The position numbers and the translations under genes are program-made. The notes below the pieces were generated by a model. It saw only the letters and a program-made list of their open reading frames with translations, searched no databases and was not told the DNA's origin. This document shows positions 43,887 through 57,335 of a DNA stretch of 64,000 nucleotides, piece after piece. The stretch comes from Candidatus Tectomicrobia bacterium (GTDB taxonomy: Bacteria; UBA8248), in NCBI GenBank assembly GCA_016192135.1, contig JACPUR010000041.1, forward strand, positions 62,001 through 126,000. The letters are read 5' to 3'. Position 1 is the first letter of the stretch. Each line of letters starts with the position of its first letter.

Positions 43887-44060
43887 GTAGAGCCCGCCAA
43901 CCCAAAAACCCAAGCGGGGCGTGGTCTTTTCCTCAACTATCAACCGCTTAGGGAATGGCTTCATCCGGTCCTGTCGGTCCGCGTCGTCTCTTATCCGGCT
44001 TCATCGTGCAGAGTTGCGGCACGATAGCGGCACGGGAGCCATGCGTGGGATTGAACTGAA

Positions 44061-44540
44061 ATGCCCCGCCCGAAAATTGCCAAACAGCTTGCCAAACCTG
44101 ACCTCCCCCCTTACTCCCTCCAAGGGGTCATCTCCCTTCTACTCAAGGGCTGGACGCACCAGAAGGTCGCGGACCTTTACGGCGTCTCCAGACAGGCCAT
44201 CACGCAGAAAGTCAAGGGGCTTTGGGAACTTCTCGATCCGGAGCGCCTGGAGGCGTATGAGGCGAACCGGGCCAAGCTCCTGAGCGGCGTGGAGGCGGAC
44301 CTGCTGGAGCTTTTTGGCAACCGGTCGAAGCGCGAAAAAGCCACCCTCGGCAACGTGGCCTACGCCTTCACCCAAATCCACCAAGCCCGGCGGCTGGAGG
44401 GCGGGGAGTCCACCGCCAATTTCTCGCTCCGGGCCGTGGTGGAGGCGGTCAACCGGGAGAATATGGCGAAGAGAGAGCCAGAAAAGGCAAGGGAGGCCAC
44501 CGGCGCGGGAGAGCGGGCGCGGGACGAGGCGGGGGCCTAG
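44061..44540 (+). CDS. Phage-type helix-turn-helix protein (possible small-terminase-like)
   Basis: 159 residues. A helix-turn-helix is clear in LLKGWTHQKVADLYGVSRQAITQKVKGL. A middle YEANRAKLLSGVEADLLELF helix is followed by ATLGNVAYAFTQIHQARRLEGGES and a charged C-terminus. The form resembles small DNA-binding proteins, including terminase small subunits, of phages and their satellites, but no packaging partner is present. It is the first gene at the distal end of the element, 39 bases before the CRISPR array and on the same strand, so read-through could enter the array. Confidence 0.55.
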   Translation: MPRPKIAKQLAKPDLPPYSLQGVISLLLKGWTHQKVADLYGVSRQAITQKVKGLWELLDPERLEAYEANRAKLLSGVEADLLELFGNRSKREKATLGNVAYAFTQIHQARRLEGGESTANFSLRAVVEAVNRENMAKREPEKAREATGAGERARDEAGA

Positions 44541-44579
44541 CCCCTTCCCGGGATGCCCCGCAAGCCCATCATCCTCCAC

Positions 44580-45869
44580 ACTGTAGCTTGTCGAGAATCG
44601 CCGCTCAGGTACAATCGCCGCGCAGATCGACCGCCTCTGCAAGACACTGTAGCTTGTCGAGAATCACCGCTCAGGTACAATCAGGTCCGGTTTGGGTGTC
44701 TCATTGAGACGACTGTAGCTTGTCGAGAATCGCCGCTCAGGTACAATCTTCACCTTCGAGGATGACTTCTACCCGGGACTGTAGCTTGTCGAGAATCGCC
44801 GCTCAGGTACAATCCCACCCCTGGCGTCGGGCCTTGCGCGAGTACTGTAGCTTGTCGAGAATCGCCGCTCAGGTACAATAGGTCCTGATGCCGACTGACG
44901 AGGCCATGCACTGTAGCTTGTCGAGAATCGCCGCTCAGGTACAATCGACGCTGTGTGCACCCAATACCTCGAACCACTGTAGCTTGTCGAGAATCGCCGC
45001 TCAGGTACAATCCCGCTCCCCGATTTCCACGGCCAGGATGTACTGTAGCTTGTCGAGAATCGCCGCTCAGGTACAATAAACCTTCTGGCGGTGGCAGATA
45101 TCCAGCCACTGTAGCTTGTCGAGAATCGCCGCTCAGGTACAATGCGGGCTGTGCGCGTGATCGCTTCGCTCATACTGTAGCTTGTCGAGAATCGCCGCTC
45201 AGGTACAATCGATCCGCTGGATGGTGCGCAGGCTGGTGTACTGTAGCTTGTCGAGAATCGCCGCTCAGGTACAATCAAGGCTTGGCGTGCGAGTCGCATG
45301 GGGGAACTGTAGCTTGTCGAGAATCGCCGCTCAGGTACAATGGGGCGCCTCGTGGGCCCCCATCGCGTTCTACTGTAGCTTGTCGAGAATCGCCGCTCAG
45401 GTACAATGGCTGGCCCGGAAGATGCGCCTGGATATCAACTGTAGCTTGTCGAGAATCGCCGCTCAGGTACAATAACTGCCGCCTCGGCTACACCCTCATC
45501 AACACTGTAGCTTGTCGAGAATCGCCGCTCAGGTACAATATTTCGCGCATCCGTAAAGCAGCCGCATCGACTGTAGCTTGTCGAGAATCGCCGCTCAGGT
45601 ACAATCACCACATCTTGCGGCCCGCGTAGCAGGCGACTGTAGCTTGTCGAGAATCGCCGCTCAGGTACAATCCCCACGGGGGACGGCTCGGACACGCGTG
45701 TACTGTAGCTTGTCGAGAATCGCCGCTCAGGTACAATAGATCATCCGATGGAGTCCTTCTTCATAGGACTGTAGCTTGTCGAGAATCGCCGCTCAGGTAC
45801 AATCTAACGGCATGACTCACAACCACACCGCCTACTGTAGCTTGTCGAGAATCGCCGCTCAGGTACAAT
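44580..45869 (+). CRISPR. Type II-C CRISPR array, 20 repeats and 19 spacers
   Basis: Twenty 36-bp repeats on an exact 66-bp period, starting at 44580 + 66n, so all nineteen spacers are 30 nt. Repeats begin ACTGTAGCTTGTCGAG and end CTCAGGTACAAT. Repeat 2 has one substitution (G to A at repeat position 21, base 44666); the others look identical. The orientation is set by the tracrRNA anti-repeat and by similarity to Neisseria-type repeats, which end GCTACAAT. crRNA transcription is therefore rightward, toward cas2 and opposite to the cas operon, as is usual for type II-C. The variant repeat is at the cas-distal end, so new spacers probably enter at the cas2 side. All spacers differ. Confidence 0.98.
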
Positions 45870-45870
45870 T

Positions 45871-45903
45871 AACCCCCCGTAACCGACTGAGTTATGGGGG
45901 GTT
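45871..45903. other. 13-bp hairpin between the CRISPR array and cas2
   Basis: 45871-45883 pairs with 45891-45903 (13 pairs, one of them G-U) around a 7-base loop. It starts two bases after the last repeat and ends 15 bases before the cas2 stop codon. There is no T tract on either strand. It may block convergent read-through between array and cas operon or mark the spacer-acquisition end. Confidence 0.75.
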
Positions 45904-45918
45904 GATTCCATTTGAGGC

Positions 45919-46269
45919 CTAGAAAAGCATGAGTTGAGGGGGTGGTTCTTCGGCCCCTTTCCGCTTTTTCCCTTGGAAAACCTCCATCTTCCCGAACTGG
46001 CGGTCCGTGACGCCAAGGATCCGCACCTGCCCGCCCGGGGGGAGCGCCCCACGAACCCGCCGCCGGTAGGCGGCCGCGGCTTCCTCGCTCGCGCAGTAGC
46101 GGGCGTAGACCGAGAACTGGAGCATCGTGAACCCCTCGCCCAAGAGGGCGTTCCGGAAGCGGACGTACTCCCGCCGCGCCTCCTTGCTGTCCACGGGCAG
46201 GTCGAACATGGCGAAGAGCCAGATGGCGCGGTACTCCGAGAGATTGAGGCGCCCGCTGGGAATGGTCAC
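45919..46269 (-). CDS. cas2: CRISPR-associated endonuclease Cas2
   Basis: 116 residues with the ferredoxin-like Cas2 fold. AIWLFAMFDLPVDSKEARREY contains the conserved Asp23 at the end of the first strand, and GFTMLQFSVYARYC follows. It acts with Cas1 to integrate new spacers. The start overlaps cas1 by four bases (ATGA). Last gene of the cas9-cas1-cas2 operon; no cas4 or csn2 is present, which defines subtype II-C. Confidence 0.95.
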   Translation of the reverse strand: MTIPSGRLNLSEYRAIWLFAMFDLPVDSKEARREYVRFRNALLGEGFTMLQFSVYARYCASEEAAAAYRRRVRGALPPGGQVRILGVTDRQFGKMEVFQGKKRKGAEEPPPQLMLF

Positions 46270-47153
46270 ACCTCCGGCAGGACGAGGCTCTTCCGCTTTC
46301 CGGCGTACACGGCTGCGAGGCTCGCCGCCATGCGCGCCGCGATGTCGAAGAGGGTGCGCGACTCTCCCTCGGCTTCAAATCTCCCCGTCAGTGCCCCGAT
46401 GAGCGCCTTCTTGGCCTCCTTGTCGAGGGGCGCGTCTGCCCCTTCTTCCTCGCAGTTGCGCGCGACCGCCCGGTCCACGACGGGCCGGAAGGGCTCCATC
46501 AGGTCGTCGGCGAGCCGGAAGGCGTCGTAGCGGTTGTGGTGGTGGAGGCCAAAGGAGGGATGGAGACCAGCCCCGCAAATAGCCCGCGCCACGATGGCCC
46601 GGAGGACCGCATAGCCGTAGTTGAGAAACCGGTTTTGATCCTCCGCCTCCCGGTTTCTCCGGAAATCGGGATCTCCAAAGAGTTCGCGCCAATACCTCCG
46701 CGAGGCCTGAGCCTCGATGCTGGCCGCGTTGCCCGTGAGGACCCGCCCGGCCATTTGGAGGAGGCCTTCGTCGTTTCCCCGAAGCTCGGCCAGCACCTTT
46801 CCCTGAGCCCGTACTTTGGCCCGGACCAAATCCCGCCACAGGCGCTTTAGGACAGGCAGGGATACTCCCGCCTGAAGGGCGAAGCGCTCCCCCTGTGTCG
46901 AGTGGCCCTCCAGGGGGAGGAGCATGGCCGAGGGCATGTGGCGGCCGTCGCAGGCCACGAATATGCCTCCCGCCGCCGCAAGGCCGCTCAGTACCGCATG
47001 GGTGAAGGTCACGCCGGGGTTCGAGACGACCAGAGCAGCGACCTCGGCCAGAGGAATCGCGTTCTCCCCGCTCTCCAACTGGATGACCAGAAGGGAGTTC
47101 CGGACGCTTAAGCGCGCGGGCGCTTCGGATATGTCAATGACCCGCTCAATCAC
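46266..47153 (-). CDS. cas1: CRISPR-associated integrase Cas1
   Basis: About 295 residues. It begins VIERVIDISEAPARLSVRNS, the type II Cas1 N-terminus, from a GTG at 47153 that overlaps the cas9 stop by eight bases. An in-frame start at 47189 deeper in cas9 is possible but adds unconserved residues. Metal-binding residues are Glu147 in SIEAQASRRYW, the HHH cluster at 204-206 (GLHPSFGLHHHNRYD) and Glu220 in LADDLMEPFRP. With Cas2 it catalyses spacer acquisition. All catalytic positions look intact, so adaptation should be functional. Confidence 0.94.
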   Translation of the reverse strand: MIERVIDISEAPARLSVRNSLLVIQLESGENAIPLAEVAALVVSNPGVTFTHAVLSGLAAAGGIFVACDGRHMPSAMLLPLEGHSTQGERFALQAGVSLPVLKRLWRDLVRAKVRAQGKVLAELRGNDEGLLQMAGRVLTGNAASIEAQASRRYWRELFGDPDFRRNREAEDQNRFLNYGYAVLRAIVARAICGAGLHPSFGLHHHNRYDAFRLADDLMEPFRPVVDRAVARNCEEEGADAPLDKEAKKALIGALTGRFEAEGESRTLFDIAARMAASLAAVYAGKRKSLVLPEV

Positions 47154-50100
47154 TGGCCAGGCGCACCTCGCCCAAGGGTGTGACAACAACTTTTCTGCAA
47201 TTCATCTCCCGCAATTTATCTATCGGCGCTTCTTTCCGGTCGCCCGCTTTTTTAATGTCGGACACTTTCCGGGCGTCGTTGGTCCGCTGGTATTCGATTG
47301 TCTTCCGCCCATCTTTTCGATGAACGACTGTTTTGACGAGATACAGCCACATTGAACCATCACCATCTGTCAGCTGAATGGTCTCGCCAGGAGCCAGGGA
47401 GAACTTAAACTCACTCCCATCTCCACGGTCTTTCTTTACGATCGCTCCCCATACTGAGAACGACTTCCCACGCCCTCGCCTTAGCCCACTTCCATCCCCA
47501 CGAGCATTCCTGACAACTGCTCCTTCCGGGAGAGGCACCCCCTCCCGGAACCTGCGTATGGTCTCTTCTAGCCGCCGCATGGCTTCGTAGGTACTGACGA
47601 CCTCGCCCTCCCATCTCGGAAGCCCTTGGCCGTCCTGCGTCTCAAAAATTGCAACGTAATGGTTGGAACCCGGCATAACGTGGCGGGTCTCGTCCACCTG
47701 CATCACCCGTTCATACTTGCGGATGCGAACCTTGTGGATTGGGATCTCCCGGCCGTCCTTCGCCTTCAGGCAGGGATGATCCTTCGGATCCTTGAAGACT
47801 TTCTTCGGCTCCTCCCCGTTCAGCCTTTCCTTGACGATTCGCTTGATGGTCCGGTCCTGGATGTTCTCGACCTCGGAAGCGGAGAGGGCGCCAAGAGGCT
47901 TCCGGACGAGCGCGTATACCTTGCCTTTCTCATCCGTGCGCGGTCTGCTGTGGATGGTTGCGTTGTGGAGCGCCCCGCGCACCTTGCAGGAAACCCGGTG
48001 GGAGACCTTCAGGCACGCGATAACGCGCCGTACATCATCGAGGAATCCGGACCAGGGCGGCTCCACTTTTCCGAAGAGCCTCCGGCGCTCCCGGGTGGCC
48101 CGCTTCGCCGCGTCGCTGAGCGCCTTGACCGCCGCCGGGGTCGTGAGGGCGATGGCGACAGCGTCAACCGCGTGGTGGCGGTGATCCTCGCGTGATTTCT
48201 GCGGCCCGCCGTTGAGGATGCGGTTCAGCCCCCACTCGCCCCGCAGGAAATGGGTCACCTGGCCCCGTGTAGCCTGGACGCGGATTTTGCCCTCCGGATC
48301 GGCCCCATGTTCGTTCGCTCCATATAGGAGGCCCAGATACCTCCTCGCCAACCTCGCGGCGTAGCGCGTGTCGTTGAGCTGGCGGGCCGTGAAGTCTTCG
48401 ATGCTCTCCAGGTCCTTGAGTTGGAAGCGCTCCAGCTTGACGCGGGCGGCGTCTCCCTTGAACTGCTTGACGCGCTGGATGATTTCTTCCCATTCAGATG
48501 TACCGCCATAGGCTTCCCAGGGCGTCTGGTTCCGCTTCCGGTTGCGGTTCTCCTCGTGGTGGCAGAGGGTCTTGTTCATGAAGGAATTGTCGAGGGAGCG
48601 GTCGAGGGGGATGATGTGCTCCACGTCGAACTGGGGGCTCGGCCCGATGAGTGAGGCAGCGTTGATTGTCCGGTTGGTGTACGGGCACTTCCAGCCGCAT
48701 TCCTCGGCGAGGAGCCATTTCTCAATGTCATGACCCCGGGGCTCTGCCCCGGTCTCCTTGATAATTTTTTGAGCCTTGATAATTTTTTGAGCGGCATCTT
48801 CTCGCCTGAGGCGGTTTTCATAGTTGCGCCTTGAGATCGCCTTGCGGTCCTCGCGCGACTTCTTGAGATCGCGGGCCAGCTCGACCCGGACGAGGCTGGG
48901 CTTGCCGTATTCGCGCACGATGGCGTTGACGATCTTCCGCACTTCCGTGAGGGTCCGCTGGACGGCCGGGTTGCGGACCTCCAGCGCGTCCGCCAGGGGA
49001 GGCAGCGACTCCTCCGGCTCCGGGAGAGACAGGTCCCCATAGACCTGCTTCCGCGCCGTAGCGTAGGGGACGCCCCCTTCTATGAGGGGGAGGAGCCTGT
49101 TCACCGCATCGAGCGACAAGGAGAGGTGGCCCTCTTCCAATCCAATCTCGCCGAATTTCTTCGCCGCCTCCTCATCGAGCCCCCACTTGTCCCTTCCGAG
49201 TTTCCGGAGCGTCTCCTCCCTCCGGATGCTTCGGACGTACCAGACGATCCGATCCTTCTCCTCCGAGGAAAACCCTGCCCACCGTTCTTGGCCGAACACC
49301 TCGATGAGCTTGGCCGCCGTGCGGTTCCCGGCGAGCTTCTTCTCGGCCTCGGTCTCGAAGTTGAATCGGTGGCCCTTGAGCTTGAGGAGGGTACGAATTT
49401 TAGGGAATGTGAGATCCCCTTGAGACTCAAGAGCATCCAGTAGCTTTGTGCGCTCCTCGGGCTCCAGATTCCGGATTTCCCCATCCGGCGTGATCACTTT
49501 CAGGTCGTTCACCTTCTGGAGGAGGCGGAAACGTTGGGCGGGAAGGAGGGCGAGGGGGGCGCGCTTTTGGCCCGGCTCCAATTCGCACTCGCCGATCAGG
49601 TGCTTCGCGCTCTTGAGAGGCCGCTGGCGGAAGATGGCCCGGTGGACCTTTCGTTTGAGTTCCTCGGCCAGGGCGCCTGGATGGTAGGGAACCTGAGCGG
49701 CCCATATTTTCTCGAACTCCCCCTGATACATCTCCCTTGCCGTCCAGCGGGCGCGGATGCGCTCCTCCTCGGGGTCGAGGCGGGAGAAGTATTCGCCGAG
49801 CGTGCGCGTCCCTGAATTTTCGATGTTCTGCGCCAGTTCGCCGATCTTCTTCTTGACCTCGCCCTTCTTCTTCTTGACCTCGCCCTGATCTCCTTTTCCC
49901 TTCTCGGCTTTCCTGAGAGCCCTCCGGTTCGAAAGGAAGCCGCGCCGGTGGGCCAAGTGGTAGATGGCACGGCCCAGTTCGAAGGGTTCGAGCTTTTCAT
50001 CAAGGGCCCGTGCTCGGAGGCGGTAGGGGAGGACGTGGGGATGGGCCTTTCTCTCCTCGTCGGAAAAGAGGCCCCGGTCGAGCGCCTTGAAGAACGCATC

Positions 50101-50415
50101 CCGGGCCTCGGGCAAACTCAAATCGCCCGGCGGCAGGAGGCCGACCTCCTGAAGGATGAGGGCGAGGCCCTTGAGGCGGCGGGCGCGGCGGGCGAGCATC
50201 CGCCTCCGAAGGCGGGCCTCGCGGCGATCCTTGGCCCGCGATTCATCCCCTCCCGACTCGATGTCCCCCTCCACCCCGGCGGGGTAGACGCGCACCCCCG
50301 CGCGGAGGAAGCCTACTGGCTTGGCATTTCCAAGCTTGATGAGGGCCCAGCCGACCGAGTTGGCGCCGATGTCGAGGCCAAGGAGAGTTTCTGGAGCGGG
50401 CGTGGGCGGGTTCAT
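47146..50415 (-). CDS. cas9: CRISPR-associated endonuclease Cas9, type II-C
   Basis: 1089 residues, typical of compact II-C enzymes. RuvC-I GLDIGANSVGWAL with Asp15; arginine-rich bridge helix about 60-82; RuvC-II RVELARDLKKS with Glu512; HNH domain about 573-625 with DVEHIIPLDRS, His600 as general base and nearby Asn residues; RuvC-III HHAVDAVAIAL with Asp751. The C-terminal 300 residues form the WED/PAM-interacting part and cannot be assigned a PAM by eye. All nuclease residues are intact, so double-strand cutting is expected. Two in-frame tandem duplications occur (residues about 178-192 and 542-553). First gene of the cas operon, with GAGGAGAGG before the ATG. Confidence 0.97.
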   Translation of the reverse strand: MNPPTPAPETLLGLDIGANSVGWALIKLGNAKPVGFLRAGVRVYPAGVEGDIESGGDESRAKDRREARLRRRMLARRARRLKGLALILQEVGLLPPGDLSLPEARDAFFKALDRGLFSDEERKAHPHVLPYRLRARALDEKLEPFELGRAIYHLAHRRGFLSNRRALRKAEKGKGDQGEVKKKKGEVKKKIGELAQNIENSGTRTLGEYFSRLDPEEERIRARWTAREMYQGEFEKIWAAQVPYHPGALAEELKRKVHRAIFRQRPLKSAKHLIGECELEPGQKRAPLALLPAQRFRLLQKVNDLKVITPDGEIRNLEPEERTKLLDALESQGDLTFPKIRTLLKLKGHRFNFETEAEKKLAGNRTAAKLIEVFGQERWAGFSSEEKDRIVWYVRSIRREETLRKLGRDKWGLDEEAAKKFGEIGLEEGHLSLSLDAVNRLLPLIEGGVPYATARKQVYGDLSLPEPEESLPPLADALEVRNPAVQRTLTEVRKIVNAIVREYGKPSLVRVELARDLKKSREDRKAISRRNYENRLRREDAAQKIIKAQKIIKETGAEPRGHDIEKWLLAEECGWKCPYTNRTINAASLIGPSPQFDVEHIIPLDRSLDNSFMNKTLCHHEENRNRKRNQTPWEAYGGTSEWEEIIQRVKQFKGDAARVKLERFQLKDLESIEDFTARQLNDTRYAARLARRYLGLLYGANEHGADPEGKIRVQATRGQVTHFLRGEWGLNRILNGGPQKSREDHRHHAVDAVAIALTTPAAVKALSDAAKRATRERRRLFGKVEPPWSGFLDDVRRVIACLKVSHRVSCKVRGALHNATIHSRPRTDEKGKVYALVRKPLGALSASEVENIQDRTIKRIVKERLNGEEPKKVFKDPKDHPCLKAKDGREIPIHKVRIRKYERVMQVDETRHVMPGSNHYVAIFETQDGQGLPRWEGEVVSTYEAMRRLEETIRRFREGVPLPEGAVVRNARGDGSGLRRGRGKSFSVWGAIVKKDRGDGSEFKFSLAPGETIQLTDGDGSMWLYLVKTVVHRKDGRKTIEYQRTNDARKVSDIKKAGDRKEAPIDKLREMNCRKVVVTPLGEVRLASD

Positions 50416-50428
50416 CTCGCCTCTCCTC

Positions 50429-50456
50429 TTGACAAAATTTTCTGGAAGGATATTAT
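50429..50456 (+). promoter_or_regulatory. Promoter of the tracrRNA gene
   Basis: TTGACA at 50429-50434, 16 bases, then TATTAT at 50451-50456. Predicted start is about 50463, two bases before the anti-repeat. The promoter overlaps the cas9 leader region on the other strand, so tracrRNA and cas9 are divergent and share this 50-base segment. Confidence 0.85.
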
Positions 50457-50462
50457 TTCATG

Positions 50463-50570
50463 TGATTGTACCTGAGCGGCGATTGCTTGCAAGTTACAGC
50501 AAGGGCTTTCGTCCGCCGGGCTCTGCCCCGCGAGGGGCACCCCGAGGCGCCTCCTGAGGCGCCTTTTTTT
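50463..50570 (+). ncRNA. tracrRNA
   Basis: The anti-repeat at 50465-50500 is complementary to the CRISPR repeat at 29 of 36 positions plus G-U pairs: 20 contiguous pairs, a five-base internal bulge (GCTTG against the repeat's processed side), then CAAG and TACAG. After it come a nexus-like GGGCTTTCGTCCGCC, a hairpin GCTCTGCCCC-GCGA-GGGGCA strikingly like the Neisseria tracrRNA core, and a terminator hairpin at 50545-50564 (9-bp arms AGGCGCCTC/GAGGCGCCT) with seven T residues ending at 50570. Length about 108 nt. It pairs with pre-crRNA, directs RNase III processing and loads Cas9. Confidence 0.95.
50465..50492 (-). promoter_or_regulatory. Candidate cas9 promoter inside the anti-repeat
   Basis: On the minus strand, TTGCAA (50492-50487), 16 bases, then TACAAT (50470-50465). 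The geometry is identical to that in each array repeat (TTGTCG, 16 bases, TACAAT). The start would fall near 50458, giving a leader of about 43 nt before the cas9 ATG at 50415. Sequence-based suggestion only. Confidence 0.55.
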
Positions 50571-50626
50571 GCTCGTATTCCCCCAGTCCGGAGAAAAGAA
50601 ATTCTTCGTCCGCAGTGGCCTGTCAC

Positions 50627-51586
50627 CTACAGCAATCCCTCCCCCGCGTGGCCCTTGAAGGCGTCCGCCCGGCGGACGTAGGCCCGGACGGTCTGGACGC
50701 TCCGGTGGCGGGACACGTCCATGATGGCCCATACGTCCTTCCCCGCCTCGGCCGCCGCCGTGACGAAACCCGCGCGGAGGGAGTGCCCGCCGAAGTCCTC
50801 CGCCCGGAGGCCCGCCCGCTCCGCGTACCGCTTGACCGCCTTCCCGATGCTGTGGCCGCTCAAGGCCCCGGCCTGGACCTTGCCCCCCTTCCCCAGGCGC
50901 CGGAACACGGGGCCGCTCGCGATGCCCGCCCCGGCCAGCCAAGCCCGAAGCGCCCCGACCGGGCAGAAGAACCTCCCGCGCACGATGGGGACGCCCCGCC
51001 CCTGGCCCTCTTGGTCCGTCTTGGAGCGCCGAAGGTGGACCCAAAGGTTCCCGTCCTCCCGGAATTCCACGTCCCCGGCCTCAAGGCCCGCAAGCTCGGA
51101 GCGCCGGAAGGCCCCCGCGAAGCCCAGGAGCAAGAGCGCCCGGTCCCGGAGGCCCCGGAGGGTACTTGTATCGCACAGCCGGACCAACTCCCGGATCACG
51201 TCCGCATCGGCGGCCCGCTTCTGGCGGGGCGCGGCTCCCTTCTCCCGGCGGATGCCCTTCAAGGTGGTCCGCACGGCTTCATCCCGGGTGGGGGACTCCA
51301 AGCCCGCCGCTCGATGAGCCAGGGCGATGGCCGCCAAGCGGCGCTCGATGGTGGACACTTTCCGGCCCCGCTCCGCCTCGTGCGCCAGGAAGGCGCAGAC
51401 GGCCCCGGGGGAGGCCGGGAGGGGGGAGAGGCCCCGGGCCTCGGCCCAGGCCGCGAACGCGCGCCAGTCCGCCCGGTAGGCCCGCTTCGTGGACTCCGCG
51501 CGGGAGGCCTCCGCGTACCGCCGGGAGGACTCGGCATCGGCAAGCGCCAGGGCCTCGCCGGTTTCCACTTTCTGCAAGCCGTCCAT
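50627..51586 (-). CDS. Tyrosine recombinase/integrase (XerC/D-like)
   Basis: 319 residues. The N-terminal SAM-like core-binding domain spans about 20-110. Catalytic residues Arg161 (FAGAFRRSELAGL), Lys188 (RRSKTDQEG), His268 and Arg271 (GGHSLRAGFVT), His294 (SRHRSVQTV) and Tyr303 (RAYVRR) are all present. It lacks the Arg/Lys-rich arm-binding N-terminus of the integrase at the tRNA end, so it is closer to Xer-type resolvases or cassette integrases. It lies between the tracrRNA gene and ardC. It could resolve element dimers or have moved the CRISPR segment. Confidence 0.92.
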   Translation of the reverse strand: MDGLQKVETGEALALADAESSRRYAEASRAESTKRAYRADWRAFAAWAEARGLSPLPASPGAVCAFLAHEAERGRKVSTIERRLAAIALAHRAAGLESPTRDEAVRTTLKGIRREKGAAPRQKRAADADVIRELVRLCDTSTLRGLRDRALLLLGFAGAFRRSELAGLEAGDVEFREDGNLWVHLRRSKTDQEGQGRGVPIVRGRFFCPVGALRAWLAGAGIASGPVFRRLGKGGKVQAGALSGHSIGKAVKRYAERAGLRAEDFGGHSLRAGFVTAAAEAGKDVWAIMDVSRHRSVQTVRAYVRRADAFKGHAGEGLL

Positions 51587-51602
51587 CTTTCATCCCTCCC
51601 AT

Positions 51603-51629
51603 GCCCGGCCCCTCCGATGGGGGCCGGGC
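51603..51629 (-). terminator. Hairpin downstream of the ardC-like gene
   Basis: 10-bp perfect stem (51603-51612 with 51620-51629), 7-base loop, no T tract. It lies between the ardC-like gene and the recombinase gene on the same strand and may attenuate read-through. The rest of the 51587-51738 gap holds nothing recognisable. Confidence 0.45.
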
Positions 51630-51738
51630 GCGATGCCCCGCGTCCGGGGCGCCGACTCTGACCGCCGTTCAGCGCCGGGGTTTTACCCCCGTCCGGTTGC
51701 CGATGGCCCGGGTCCCGGTCGGCCTTTCGATGGTGGAA

Positions 51739-52605
51739 CTAGGCCGCTACCGCCTCCGCCGCCGCGAGGATTTCCCCGAGGATCGCCCGAATCCGCTTCA
51801 TGGCCCGGAAGATGGTGGGGACCACCGCCTTCTTGCCCCCGGCGTACTTCGCGATGTAGTCATAGGCCCGCCCCTCGTTCCCCAGCTGGACCCCGTACAG
51901 GCGCGAAAGGACCGCCGCCGCCATTTCCGCCGCTACCTCTTGATCGACGTGCTGGCCGGGCGTGAGGCGGCCCCGGAGCCGGGCGTCCGCCGCGTGGGCC
52001 AGTTCGTGGAAGAAAACGTCCTCATCTTGGGTCGCCAGCCGGATCTCCCGGCCGTCCACGGTGCAGGAACCCGCCGCGCCTTCCATGCAACCCAGGTAGG
52101 AAACCCGTACCCCCCAGGCTTCCGCGACTTCGGCCAGGGGAGGCGCAACGGGGGGCAGATAGGCGAGCGGTTCGCCTTCGGTATCCTCTAGACGGAACAC
52201 AGGGGCGGCGAAGAAGCGCCCCGCGAAGGCCTCCCGGTACTCCGCCGGTCCGGTTTCGATGAACTCGGCGTCATCGGCGGGGAAGCCGTCCGGGCCATCG
52301 TGGGAAAAATGCCCGCCGCTCTTGACCGGCACCTTCACCATGCGGGGGGCCAGGATGTGGAAGGCCTTGGCCCCTTTCTTGACGTGCCGCCCGGCCGCCT
52401 TCCATTGCCGGAAGCCCCGGGCGTCCTCCGTTCCCGCCAGGGCGCAGAGGATTTGATTGCAGAGGGACCACTTGGCGGAGGGGATGCCGGGGTCTTTGAT
52501 GAGGGTCCGGGCCAGGATGGCCGGGACCTCGCCCCGGGCGAACGCTGCGACGATTCCATTCAGGGCATCTTGCGCGTGAAGCTGAGACTTACTAGGCTGG
52601 GCCAT
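51739..52605 (-). CDS. ArdC-like antirestriction protein
   Basis: 288 residues. The N-terminal ArdC-type ssDNA-binding domain (about 8-110) has WSLCNQILCALAGTEDARGFRQW and VKKGAKAFHILAP. The C-terminal domain is a zincin with HELAH (200-204) and a downstream acidic DQEVAAEMAA that supplies the third ligand. ArdC proteins bind single-stranded DNA and protect incoming plasmids from restriction. Here it would defend the element on entering a host. The start at 52605 is chosen for GGAGG eight bases upstream; the frame is open to 52728 without family similarity. Confidence 0.85.
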   Translation of the reverse strand: MAQPSKSQLHAQDALNGIVAAFARGEVPAILARTLIKDPGIPSAKWSLCNQILCALAGTEDARGFRQWKAAGRHVKKGAKAFHILAPRMVKVPVKSGGHFSHDGPDGFPADDAEFIETGPAEYREAFAGRFFAAPVFRLEDTEGEPLAYLPPVAPPLAEVAEAWGVRVSYLGCMEGAAGSCTVDGREIRLATQDEDVFFHELAHAADARLRGRLTPGQHVDQEVAAEMAAAVLSRLYGVQLGNEGRAYDYIAKYAGGKKAVVPTIFRAMKRIRAILGEILAAAEAVAA

Positions 52606-52715
52606 TCTCGTTTCCCTCCTACCAGGGATTCGGGATAGGGCCTCTTTGGGGTTGGCGCCCCTCTGAGGCCCGCTTTTTTGGTTGCGGGAAGCAGGGATTA
52701 TCGCAACCAAAAATG

Positions 52716-52744
52716 AATCTAGGGCCATGCAATCATTTTGTCAA
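52716..52744 (-). promoter_or_regulatory. Candidate promoter of the ardC-like gene
   Basis: On the minus strand, TTGACA (52744-52739), 17 bases, TAGATT (52721-52716), in an AT-rich gap between divergent genes. It gives an untranslated leader of about 100 nt. Confidence 0.5.
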
Positions 52745-52788
52745 TCGAAAATATGGACATGCTATCAAAAAGTCTGTAGAGTGCTTTT

Positions 52789-53001
52789 ATGAATGCGCGC
52801 GGCGGGGCCAGGGAAGGGGCGGGGCGGAAGCCCAAGGGGCCGGAAAAACTCTCCAGCTTGCTCAAGGTGCTGATGGCCCCAAGTGACCGGGAGCGGCTGG
52901 AGAAGGCCGCCCGAAGCCGGGGCATCGGCGCAAGTGAACTCGCCCGCGCCTACATCCTCCGAGGGCTGGCCGGGGAGGAGAAGCGGAAGGGGAAGGGATA
53001 G
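52789..53001 (+). CDS. Small ribbon-helix-helix-like DNA-binding protein
   Basis: 70 residues. The N-terminus GGAREGAGRKPKGPEK is a basic motif frequent in small phage and plasmid proteins. The rest (LMAPSDRERLEKAARSRGIGASELARAYILRGL) fits an RHH-type strand-helix-helix. A likely transcriptional regulator of the element, divergent from ardC with the AT-rich intergenic region as probable operator. Possibly also a mobilisation accessory factor. Confidence 0.65.
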   Translation: MNARGGAREGAGRKPKGPEKLSSLLKVLMAPSDRERLEKAARSRGIGASELARAYILRGLAGEEKRKGKG

Positions 53002-53726
53002 GCGGCCCTGCCCTTCACCAAAGGGCATCCCCCAAAGCGCGCGCGCTTTCCTGGCGGGACTTTGGCCCGCACCCCTGCCCTCCCCCCCCGAGGGGCATGG
53101 GTCCAGGGCACCCCCCTCGCGAATGCTCTATCCCGTTTTTACCGGCGCGCCGTATAAAAGCGGCTTCAGGGCCTGCCAGGGGCGGTTATTGACGAAACGG
53201 AAAAGGGAGCCGGGTGATAGGAGAACGGAGAATGGAACCCGTTGCCCGCTCACTCTTGCTTGATATTGTCGCAAAGAATTACATTAACGGTGACACATAG
53301 ACCCGTTGGCCGCTCTCCCGCCCCCAAAAAAGACACCCCTGCCACAAACCATGAGCGAGGAGTTAGTTAGCGATAAGTCCCCTTCCCGCAAGCGATATAC
53401 TCCGGCCGGTCTGGCTATGCCGGAAGGCCAGGAGCGGGCCGATATCATCCCCCGGGGGCCTTGGCACACCCCCCGCCGGGGGCAATCGCGTAGGGGTCCC
53501 AACGTTTCACTTTAGGGGCAAATGCTTCCGCCGAATTGCCAGAGGGGCCAGGGGCAGCGAAATACGGTCCCTTCGCCAGCGGCCGGACATCAATGGGCGC
53601 CGATTTTTTGATGAGGGCTGGTTTTAGCGATATCGCTTCCGGCCGGGGCTAGGCTTCGCACTCCAAGATCCGCTCTCCCGAGCGGCCTGCCCCGCGCCTG
53701 ATTCTCGGGTGCCCCACGGAGGGGCT
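53002..53726. other. 725-base gap with related short motifs and no firm gene
   Basis: Two similar words, AGCGATATACTCCGGCCGG (53391) and AGCGATATCGCTTCCGGCCGG with a perfect 12-bp palindrome (53626-53637), lie about 235 bases apart. An unsupported open frame of 55 codons runs 53351-53515 and a 22-codon frame with a plausible ribosome site runs 53232-53300. I cannot assign either. Could be a control or replication region of the element. Confidence 0.35.
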
Positions 53727-54398
53727 ATGAATCCAATCTCTCAAGGCGACAATCCGGACGAACGAACGGGCGCACGTTACGACCCTTCGGATTGGACCCC
53801 TTCTAGAATCTACGACTACATATGCCGGTGCGAACGGAGGGAGCATGGCACTGTGTTGCTGTCCGAGGAAAAATATCAGGGTTGGCTGAAAGAATATGCC
53901 AGCCGAGCCGTTCAGGCTGGAATTAATCGTTTCTTACGTGCGGCCACTGCCCGGCCCTCAAAAACCCGTCGTTATGCGCGGTCGAGCCGCAAGAGCCTCT
54001 ATGACCGCGTCGGCGGCAGTCCGTGGGATCGCCCGCAAAGACTCCATCGCATGATTGCCGAGCACGAATTTCCGTGGGTTGTCCTGAAAGGTGAGTTCGA
54101 TACCATTATGGACAAGAATCTTAACAGAGAAGCGGCAATCACAATTCTACGGGAGCGATATCACTACCTCCCTCACGTGAGGAGAGAGAGGTTTCCAATG
54201 GACCTTTTGGAAAATCCTTCAACATTGGCGTATGCAGAAATTATCGAAGACCTAGAATTAGGAATTGAGCCAGAGTCTTTGCCATCTCTTCTTTCGAGGG
54301 CTCCTGTTCCTGATGAAATTAGACAGTGGGTCCAGCCTCGCACCCGCAAACTTTCTCCCACCATCAAAGGCACCCGGTCCAGGAAGCTTAGAAAGTAA
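53727..54398 (+). CDS. Hypothetical protein of the integrative element
   Basis: About 223 residues, not recognised. It is basic at both ends (the C-terminus ends in TRSRKLRK), has no membrane segment, and has a central LREDYHYLP-like helical part (EAAITILRERYHYLPHVRRE). Base composition is clearly lower in GC than the neighbours. The ATG at 53727 follows GGAGGGG. Its place between the regulator gene and the replication operon suggests an element-specific accessory function, perhaps DNA-binding. Confidence 0.6.
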   Translation: MNPISQGDNPDERTGARYDPSDWTPSRIYDYICRCERREHGTVLLSEEKYQGWLKEYASRAVQAGINRFLRAATARPSKTRRYARSSRKSLYDRVGGSPWDRPQRLHRMIAEHEFPWVVLKGEFDTIMDKNLNREAAITILRERYHYLPHVRRERFPMDLLENPSTLAYAEIIEDLELGIEPESLPSLLSRAPVPDEIRQWVQPRTRKLSPTIKGTRSRKLRK

Positions 54399-55115
54399 AT
54401 TCATCCCACTCACTCCTGCAATCCTTTGTTTTTATTCTTGATTAGGCACCGATTTCAGTTTTGGCGTCCCCTCGCCCCGAATCATTACATTGCATCCCGA
54501 CGGCGGGAGCGCATCGACGCCCTCCCGCACCAAAACCCCTGCCCCCGCCTCCTGCCCGGGAAAGCGACCGAAGGGTGCCAATAATAGTTCCCGTTCTAGA
54601 CCAAGGCCCTGGGAAATCCCCCCGTCCTATAACGCTGAGCCCGTCCCCCGCCTTCGGCCCCAGGGGGGACGGGTCAGAGGGGGAGCGAGTCGTGAGCGTG
54701 ATTCACTGCTCTGGACAGGAAGTCCGCAGTAGCTTGAACCAGATTCTTGTTGACATTTTGAAAAGCGCTTCCCTATATATGGGGAGAATACCGAAGCGGT
54801 TGAACCCAGCCGCGGAGACTTCGGTATCGCGGGGCCGGACTCCCGCGCGGGTAGCGGGTCCCAAAAACCCGGAATCACCCGGCGAGGGGGCAGCAACACG
54901 CGTCACTCCCCCCTCAAAACAAAAGCCGAACGGCGCGCTCATGACGAGAGCGGGTAGCCCTACGGGGCGGCCCCTTCGTTTTGGGCGCGCTTTTTTTGTT
55001 GTCCGAGGAGGAAGTTCCGCTCCGCCCGGGAGGCGCGAAGGGTGGTAACCGCGACTGAGATTTCCCGCAAGGGAACAGGAGACCTTCCGCCCCAGGGCGA
55101 GGAGGGCTCCAGTCA
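54399..55115. other. 717-base gap with a strong promoter and structured region
   Basis: TTGACA (54750-54755), 18 bases, TATATA (54774-54779) is a good promoter pointing right. Downstream an ACCGAAG...CTTCGGT inverted repeat (54790-54825) and a GC-rich region ending GGGCGCGC and seven T residues (54983-54998) could form a small RNA of about 220 nt, or a leader of the replication operon that starts at 55116. No convincing coding sequence. Confidence 0.45.
54750..54779 (+). promoter_or_regulatory. Promoter ahead of the replication/integration operon
   Basis: TTGACA, 18-base spacer, TATATA. It is the best sigma70-like match in the right half of the element. Its transcript would start near 54786, 330 bases before the first gene. 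Confidence 0.6.
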
Positions 55116-57335
55116 ATGACAACGACGGCGCCCGCTCTCCGATTCCACCATCCCACCCTCGGCAAGCCAGAGATGGTCTGCCCCTTCGTCCAGCCGGACG
55201 GGACGCTCATCGGCTACGAGGTCCGATTCCCTGGCAAGCGAATCCTTCCTCTTACCCCCACGGGCGAATGGCGCGCCTTTTGGCAGCCGGACAAGCGGCC
55301 CCTTGCCAACCTGGACCGCATATCGACTGAGCCCGACAAAACGATCATTGTCTGCGAAGGTCCCAAGGCCATGTTCGCGGCGCAGAGGCTTTTCCCGGGC
55401 TACATCTGCACTTGCTGGCCGGGTGGAACGAACAGCCGCGCCCAGGTGGACTTTGGCCCACTTTACAGGCGTCGGGTGATCTATTGGCCCGACGCAGACG
55501 GGCCGGGCATCGAGTGCATGAATGAAATCTACATGGAACACGCCCCCTTTTGCGAAAGGAGCTTCGTGCTGCCACCCGCTGACGCTCCGAAGGGATGGGA
55601 CGCGGCAGACCTGGAAGCTGAAAAACCTCCCGATCCCAACGCCTGGCTCAAGACCGCGTTGAAACTGCATGACGAATGGCGGGCCGCTGTTGATCCCATC
55701 ATGACCGCCTACCGAATGGAGCTTGAAACAAAGAGGGCGACGGTCCGGGAGAAGCGCCCGGCCCGGAACGGGTGGCCCGGGCCTCCCGCCGCCGACCCTA
55801 CCGACCCGGGGCCGGTGGACCTGGTTCCCGGCATCCCCGATGAGCCCTCCATCCTGTTTGAAGGCCCTCCTGTCCCGCTCGACGCGCCCGACCTCCCCCC
55901 TCTGTGCCCTGAGCTGTTCCCTGGCTTCCTTGGCGGAATGATCAAGGCAACGGCGCAGGCGACTGAAACGCCCCCCGAACTGGCCGGCCTTTTGGGCCTC
56001 GCCGCCGTCGCTGCCTGCGTGCAAGGCAAGGCCGTAGTCTGCCCCTCGCCCGACTATCGGGAGCCCCTGTGCCTCTACGTCGCGCCCGCCCTCGACTCGG
56101 GCAACCGGAAGACCTCGGTACTCATGGAAATGACTCGCCCCCTGCGCGAGTGGGAGCGCAAGCGCGCCGATGAAATCCAGCCCGAGGCGGACAAGGCCGC
56201 GAGTATGCGCAAGACGCTGGAGGCTCGCGCGGATTATCTGCGGAAGCAGGCGGCGAAAGCCGAGAGCCTGGAACTTGAAAACCTCACGGTCGAGATCGAG
56301 GAGGTGGAGCGCAAGATACCCGAGATTCCCGTCCTGCCCCGCCTCTGGGCACAAGACGTGACGCCCGAACGCCTGGGTGCCCTCATGGCCGAGAACCAAG
56401 AGCGGATTGCACTCATCAGCGACGAAGCCGGAATTTTTGAAATCCTGGAAGGTCGTTACAGCGGCGGAATCCCGAACCTGGATCTATTCCTGCAAGGGCA
56501 CGCCGGAGCGCCCGTCCGGGTGGACCGGGGGAGCCGCAAAGCCGTCTATCTCCAGAGCCCTTGCCTCACCCTCGCCCTCAGCCCCCAGCCCGAAGTGATT
56601 CGGGGGTTGGCGCTCAAGCCCGGCTTCCGGGGGCGGGGCCTCCTGGCCCGCTTCCTGTATGCCCTTCCACCTTCCCCTCTCGGCTGGCGAAAGCTCACCA
56701 GCAAGCCCACCCCCCAATCTGTGCGAGACGCCTACGCCCGGGGCCTCCGGGCGCTCCTGGACACCCCCTCTGTCATCGGCGAGGACGGGGAGCCCGTGCC
56801 GGTGGTTTTTGAGTTTTCTGATGATGCTTTCAGCGAGTGGCGGGAGTTCAGCGCGGCGACCGAGCGCGAACTGCGAGAGGATGGGGAGTACGCGCAGATC
56901 ACCGATTGGGCGGGGAAGCTCCCCGGCGCCGCCGCGAGAATTGCTGGCCTCCTTCACTGCGTCCAACACGCCGGGGCGGTTTCATTTCCGACCGCCATAT
57001 CCCGCGACACCGTGCAGAGCGCCCTGGAGATCGCCGCCATCCTCAGCAAACACGCCCTCGCCGCCTTCGGTCTTATGGGGGCGGACCCGGCCATCGAGGG
57101 GGCCAAACGAGTCTGGCGATGGATAAAGACAAGCCGGGTGAAGAGCTTCACGGCGCGCGAATGCTTCCAGGCGCTCAAGGGCACCTTCGGGCGGATGGGC
57201 GAACTACAGCCCGCCCTAGCCGTACTCGTGGAGCGGGCCTACATCGCCGAAGCCCCCCGAGAGAAGTGCAACGTCCCGGGGCGGCCGAGCAAAACCTACA
57301 CCGTCAACCCGGCCCTGACGGAGGAATGGGCATGA
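55116..57335 (+). CDS. Toprim/DUF3987 (YfjI-like) replication protein
   Basis: 739 residues. The N-terminal part (about 20-140) is Toprim-like: TIIVCEGPKAMFAAQRLFPG with Glu81 and VIYWPDADGPG with Asp126/Asp128. The large C-terminal part (about 265-650) matches the DUF3987/YfjI family found on phages, satellites and integrative elements (FLGGMIKATAQATETPPELA, LYVAPALDSGNRKTSVL, ALISDEAGIFEILEGRYSGG). A P-loop is not obvious. The last 80 residues look like a winged helix. It probably primes or helps replicate the excised element. First gene of a four-gene coupled operon with the integrase. Confidence 0.75.
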   Translation: MTTTAPALRFHHPTLGKPEMVCPFVQPDGTLIGYEVRFPGKRILPLTPTGEWRAFWQPDKRPLANLDRISTEPDKTIIVCEGPKAMFAAQRLFPGYICTCWPGGTNSRAQVDFGPLYRRRVIYWPDADGPGIECMNEIYMEHAPFCERSFVLPPADAPKGWDAADLEAEKPPDPNAWLKTALKLHDEWRAAVDPIMTAYRMELETKRATVREKRPARNGWPGPPAADPTDPGPVDLVPGIPDEPSILFEGPPVPLDAPDLPPLCPELFPGFLGGMIKATAQATETPPELAGLLGLAAVAACVQGKAVVCPSPDYREPLCLYVAPALDSGNRKTSVLMEMTRPLREWERKRADEIQPEADKAASMRKTLEARADYLRKQAAKAESLELENLTVEIEEVERKIPEIPVLPRLWAQDVTPERLGALMAENQERIALISDEAGIFEILEGRYSGGIPNLDLFLQGHAGAPVRVDRGSRKAVYLQSPCLTLALSPQPEVIRGLALKPGFRGRGLLARFLYALPPSPLGWRKLTSKPTPQSVRDAYARGLRALLDTPSVIGEDGEPVPVVFEFSDDAFSEWREFSAATERELREDGEYAQITDWAGKLPGAAARIAGLLHCVQHAGAVSFPTAISRDTVQSALEIAAILSKHALAAFGLMGADPAIEGAKRVWRWIKTSRVKSFTARECFQALKGTFGRMGELQPALAVLVERAYIAEAPREKCNVPGRPSKTYTVNPALTEEWA

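Follow-up and report, generated by a model that had tools for sequence, protein, structure and literature searches.

The window (the whole 64,000-nucleotide stretch of DNA that was analysed) contains a type II-C CRISPR-Cas9 locus, whose features are collected in Table 1. Between 44540 and 50627, the only genes identified are cas9, cas1 and cas2, and neither csn2 nor cas4 was found there. The assignment is also in agreement with the RuvC and HNH domains of the Cas9 protein, the tracrRNA with its anti-repeat and terminator, the 36-nt repeat and the convergence of the array with the cas genes, a layout described for II-C systems in PMC4607530 and PMC12080349. No Rfam family matched the tracrRNA. 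Beside the tracrRNA, at 50627-57335, there are a tyrosine recombinase, a weak ArdC-like match (below the Pfam cut-off) and a DUF3987 protein, and an integrated mobile element may contain the CRISPR locus or adjoin it. Genome-wide searches were made by pattern and family; by pattern, no copies of the repeat were found outside the array in the 3.9-Mb genome. Protospacers, sought for the PAM and the strand, were found neither in phages or plasmids nor when four 20-nt spacer ends were compared with viral contigs.

Table 1. Features of the CRISPR-Cas9 locus (positions are those of the window).
Feature	Position	Strand	Details
CRISPR array	44580..45869	+ (crRNA strand)	20 repeats x 36 nt, 19 spacers x 30 nt
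Putative promoter of repeat 1	44588..44615	+	-35 TTGTCG 44588-44593, 16 bp, -10 TACAAT 44610-44615
Strong hairpin directly 3' of the last repeat	45870..45904		TAACCCCCCGTAAC...GTTATGGGGGGTTG, -23.5 kcal/mol, z -3.9
Putative acquisition-side leader	45870..45918		49 bp, last repeat to cas2 stop
cas2	45919..46269	-	TIGR01573, E 2e-17
cas1, type II	46266..47189	-	TIGR03639, E 3e-72
cas9, 1089 aa, RuvC + HNH	47146..50415	-	TIGR01865, E 6e-202; HNH_4, RuvC_III
tracrRNA promoter	50429..50456	+	TTGACA-N16-TATTAT, 13.4 bits
tracrRNA anti-repeat	50465..50500	+	29/36 to the reverse complement of the repeat, distal 20 nt identical
Putative mirror promoter in the anti-repeat, facing cas9	50465..50492	-	TTGCAA-N16-TACAAT, 10.3 bits
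tracrRNA (anti-repeat, nexus, hairpins, terminator)	50465..50571	+	co-fold with repeat -95 kcal/mol
Intrinsic terminator of the tracrRNA	50544..50572	+	GAGGCGCCTCCTGAGGCGCC then run of seven T

The period of the array is exactly 66 throughout, and 19 repeats are identical; the sole variant is repeat 2 (G21A, outside both hexamers), the first and last repeats both being intact. Each of the 20 repeats has TTGTCG at positions 9-14 and TACAAT at positions 31-36, with 16 bases between them, and in this respect the earlier note was correct to the base. A -10 hexamer at the 3' end of the repeat, on the crRNA strand, is the mark of II-C arrays with embedded promoters, and here it is the TACAAT at 31-36. 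The TG of the extended -10, which is the Neisseria form and is not required of all such arrays, is missing, as had also been noted, since positions 28-29 are AG. TTGTCG matches TTGACA at four of six positions. The same putative promoter recurs every 66 bp, up to the last one at 45842-45869. Transcription is predicted to start some 7 nt inside each spacer (at 44622 in spacer 1), which leaves a 24-nt guide; the base at this position is a purine in only 5 of the 19 spacers, so that starts may shift by one or two bases or be weak. On a sigma-70 matrix of the E. coli type, the repeat site scores 9.15 bits. Outside the array, 9 of the 125,288 positions on the two strands of the window reach or exceed this value, or about 0.001 per 36-mer. 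As the repeats are copies of one another, the 20 sites count as one event, not twenty. When the region from 44 to 51 kb is scanned for promoters, 22 sites are found against 1.1 expected from shuffles, and these are the 20 array repeats, one site before the tracrRNA and one in the anti-repeat, directed toward cas9. The genome has an RpoD.

The tracrRNA is complementary to the plus-strand repeat, which shows that the crRNAs are read from the plus strand, toward cas2. This is the direction of the promoter motif, and it is convergent with the cas genes.

The motif was compared with the repeats found beside related Cas9 proteins in public genomes. Repeats that share fewer than 29 of 36 positions were assigned to different clusters, and the 44 loci with arrays give 32 of these repeat clusters; one locus (L124) was excluded, as its array is truncated and the register of its repeats uncertain. 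These repeats are nearly all 36 nt long, with a period of 66. When hexamer matches are averaged over the 32 clusters, at all 31 offsets and on both strands, the match to TATAAT is maximal at positions 31-36 (4.38 of 6) and the match to TTGACA is maximal at positions 9-14 (3.19 of 6), 16 bp from the -10 peak. TTG occurs at a spacing of 16 or 17 in 22 of the 32 clusters, compared with 1.8 +/- 1.3 in shuffled repeats, and the repeat of a Treponema-type relative (L013) reads TTGACA-N16-TATAAT, the consensus at every position of both hexamers. Within the hexamers, conservation is highest at 31, 32 and 36 and at 9 and 11, where promoters are most rigid. On a tree of the Cas9 proteins, which includes a Neisseria-like (L089) and a Campylobacter-like (L035) member and was built from the relatives without named reference Cas9 proteins or a II-A/II-B outgroup, the TTG state changes at least seven times, so that a single inherited accident does not explain the pattern. 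On this tree, L089 and L035 group together, with TG and without TTG. The proposal of the earlier note that a better -35 replaces the TG has the expected sign among the clusters, but the trade-off is not significant across species (Fisher p 0.44; tree-based pairs p 0.5).

Pairing with the tracrRNA was considered as the source of the motifs and rejected. An anti-repeat was clearly recognisable in 23 clusters, and at positions 15-32 it agrees with its repeat to 83-100%, whereas the motifs are largely lost from the anti-repeats, TTG falling from 14 clusters to 3 and TA...T from 21 to 8. It is also conceivable that TACAAT is kept for Cas1-Cas2 at the leader side of the repeat, its likeness to a -10 being coincidental. 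The insertion side is the 3' end of the last repeat and the ends of the repeat are partly inverted repeats, as this explanation would have it, but the mirrored 5' hexamer is far less like TATAAT (2.66 vs 4.38 of 6, p 2e-6), and an origin of TACAAT from inverted symmetry of the repeat ends is rejected on this ground. The tolerance at each position follows the rules for a -10, with 31, 32 and 36 rigid and 33 and 35 free, the -35-like peak is exactly 16 bp away, and type II-A repeats are without this 3' end, according to PMC4607530. This explanation is therefore considered improbable, although Cas1-Cas2 could account for some of the conservation at the 3' end.

The TTG at positions 9-11 allows a further reading, which is compatible with promoters embedded in the repeats: it may be kept for contacts of Cas9 or the tracrRNA at the bulge of the duplex, where these positions lie, and not as a -35, the promoters then consisting of a -10 only. 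This would suit the 10 of 32 clusters, several of them among the nearer relatives, in which TTG at the right spacing is missing, and the several decayed first repeats (described below) that have lost it. However, TTG is unpaired in most tracrRNAs, is absent beside some Cas9 proteins of the same branch, lies at the canonical spacing and is extended to TTGAC in several lineages; moreover, in the tracrRNA promoters identified near these loci, the -35 is mostly of the TTGA type. Contacts at the bulge as the whole explanation of the TTG are possible but rather unlikely; part of its conservation could be due to Cas9 or to the crRNA:tracrRNA bulge.

A different origin of the crRNAs would be a single promoter upstream of 44580, or read-through from the upstream gene, with maturation by RNase III and the tracrRNA and with the hexamers idle. 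Pairing of the whole repeat with the tracrRNA would suit RNase III, and an ORF on the same strand (44061-44540) ends 39 bp 5' of repeat 1; this ORF has weak matches to HTH_23 and KORA, both below the cut-off. Yet the promoter scan finds no promoter-like site on the plus strand at 44000-44580, and the flank is GC-rich, with 69% GC in the 39 bp between ORF and array and 70.5% in the 200 bp upstream. Further evidence comes from the array ends of the relatives. The first repeat is decayed at 12 of 32 array 5' ends, and in these 12 repeats the mismatch is 61% at positions 1-8, 29% at 9-14, 11% at 15-30 and only 1.4% at 31-36. The sole task of the first repeat would be to start the transcript of spacer 1; it provides no crRNA handle, and loss of the handle with a preserved -10 is therefore what embedded promoters predict. 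A similar argument from decayed first repeats is made in PMC12080349. The first repeat of the window array is intact, and this decay pattern is thus known from the relatives only. Transcription from upstream, with idle hexamers, is considered very improbable in view of these data.

At the 3' ends, the last repeat is intact in 46 of the 47 array ends examined. The decayed last repeat of the sole exception (L035) is an artefact, the array call having been extended into the tracrRNA of that locus. With first repeats decayed and last repeats intact, the relatives point to insertion at the 3' end, beside cas2, and from them we infer the same for the window array; insertion at this end has been reported for II-C systems (PMC8092290, PMC12638026). 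The 49 bp that follow the last repeat most likely represent the leader. The statement that an AT-rich leader is lacking consequently needs to be divided: it is right for the GC-rich 5' flank, but it does not apply to the leader as such, which is most likely at the other end. Many relatives likewise have some 50 bp between the last repeat and the cas2 stop, and their Cas2 proteins end in a similar sequence (in the window QLxLF-stop, in the region 45919-45940), so that the leader may extend into cas2. The hairpin directly after the last repeat is a putative terminator for the array, and perhaps for the cas operon; it could keep transcripts from the promoter of the last repeat from running into cas2. 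The acquisition-side leader may also act as terminator of the array. In 14 of 31 clusters, the last repeat is followed by a hairpin with z below -2, and some post-array hairpins (L032, L017, L034) have a T run in the crRNA direction.

It is concluded, with a probability of about 0.86, that each repeat of this Cas9-type array functions as a sigma-70 promoter from which every guide RNA would be made separately. The per-repeat transcription that the earlier note had suggested by analogy with Neisseria is supported by the comparison: the crRNA strand agrees with the direction of the motif, both hexamers are position-specific maxima in the 32 clusters that tracrRNA pairing does not preserve, and decayed first repeats keep the -10. 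The hexamers, their spacing, the crRNA strand, the lack of a promoter-like site upstream and the conservation among relatives are observed directly; from these we infer that the hexamers are used, where transcription starts, at which end this array acquires spacers and that the 5' ends require no processing. In the proposed mechanism, polymerase with RpoD would bind the -35 TTGTCG and the -10 TACAAT inside the repeat and initiate about 7 bases into the next spacer, giving a primary transcript with a guide of about 24 nt followed by the next repeat. The tracrRNA would pair with the 5' part of that repeat, and Cas9 would load the duplex. New spacers would enter at the 3' end beside cas2, where the copied repeat would bring its own promoter. 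The term processing-independent, used in the earlier note, can apply to the 5' ends only.

Being the repeat in inverted form, the anti-repeat carries a putative mirror promoter, which scores above the repeat's own site (10.3 vs 9.15 bits). Its predicted start is near 50458, about 42 nt before the cas9 ATG. Only about 5 bp separate it from the predicted start of the tracrRNA, and the footprints of the two polymerases would overlap. The mirror promoter has a strong score and a preserved -10 in the window and in two relatives (L010, L070), and it looks complete, by eye, in the anti-repeats of two others (L078, L120). As a cas9 promoter in general, the anti-repeat was rejected, because the site is weak or lost in most other relatives. 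A two-hexamer promoter without TG appears to be common among the repeats of the relatives. It is a doubtful extension of this observation that, in most II-C lineages outside the Neisseria/Campylobacter branch, the repeat contains a promoter complete with both hexamers and that, in the lineage of the window, the anti-repeat copy also drives cas9 in the opposite direction. If this holds, polymerase would serve either the tracrRNA or cas9, one at a time, and a single sequence would be crRNA handle, crRNA promoter, anti-repeat and cas9 promoter.

Promoters in each repeat, shown by transcript mapping in a few genera, would by these results extend to an uncultured lineage and, judged by sequence, to several phyla, and the constraint due to the promoter can be separated from that due to the guide RNA within the same 36 bases. 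The crRNA strand, the expected guide length (24 nt) and the acquisition end can now be assigned, as is needed for PAM searches and for the use of this Cas9.

The locus is similar to the II-C system of Neisseria meningitidis in having cas9-cas1-cas2, a convergent array, a -10 at the 3' end of a 36-nt repeat and guides of about 24 nt. The crRNAs of that system were described as processing-independent by Zhang et al. 2013 (as cited in PMC8616872 and PMC10309648). Neisseria-like repeats (compare L089) have the TG of the extended -10 and no TTG at positions 9-11, whereas the window repeat has no TG and a -35-like TTGTCG. In Campylobacter jejuni II-C, the -10 from which each crRNA starts likewise lies toward the 3' end of the preceding repeat, with starts in each spacer observed by dRNA-seq (PMC3656092) and 5'-RACE (PMC4607530). 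The Campylobacter repeat differs in having no TTG at 9-11, and its tracrRNA is downstream of the array, whereas that of the window is beyond cas9. In Flavobacterium II-C, a TTG located 33-35 bp ahead of each spacer has been suggested to be a -33 element (PMC8092290, PMC10309648), which is also an element of the -33/-35 type inside the repeat, but at another repeat position and belonging to the Bacteroidetes type of promoter. Per-repeat promoters were also noted in C. cellulolyticum (PMC7038990). Two surveys, one of 58 II-C species with a 3' gnTAnaaT in the repeat (PMC4607530) and one of more than 650 II-C arrays (PMC12080349), describe, in their accessible text, the same -10 at the repeat end, convergent array, decayed first repeat and insertion at the last repeat; that text marks only the -10, and neither a -35 at positions 9-14 nor a comparison of how anti-repeats lose the motif is given in it. 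A literature search, mostly covering papers outside subscription, found no paper that marks a -35 at positions 9-14. Repeat-embedded promoters of II-C systems have thus been known since 2013 and their -10 was surveyed in 2015; what appears to be new here is the putative -35 half of the repeat promoter, together with its predicted mirror copy in the anti-repeat, aimed at cas9.
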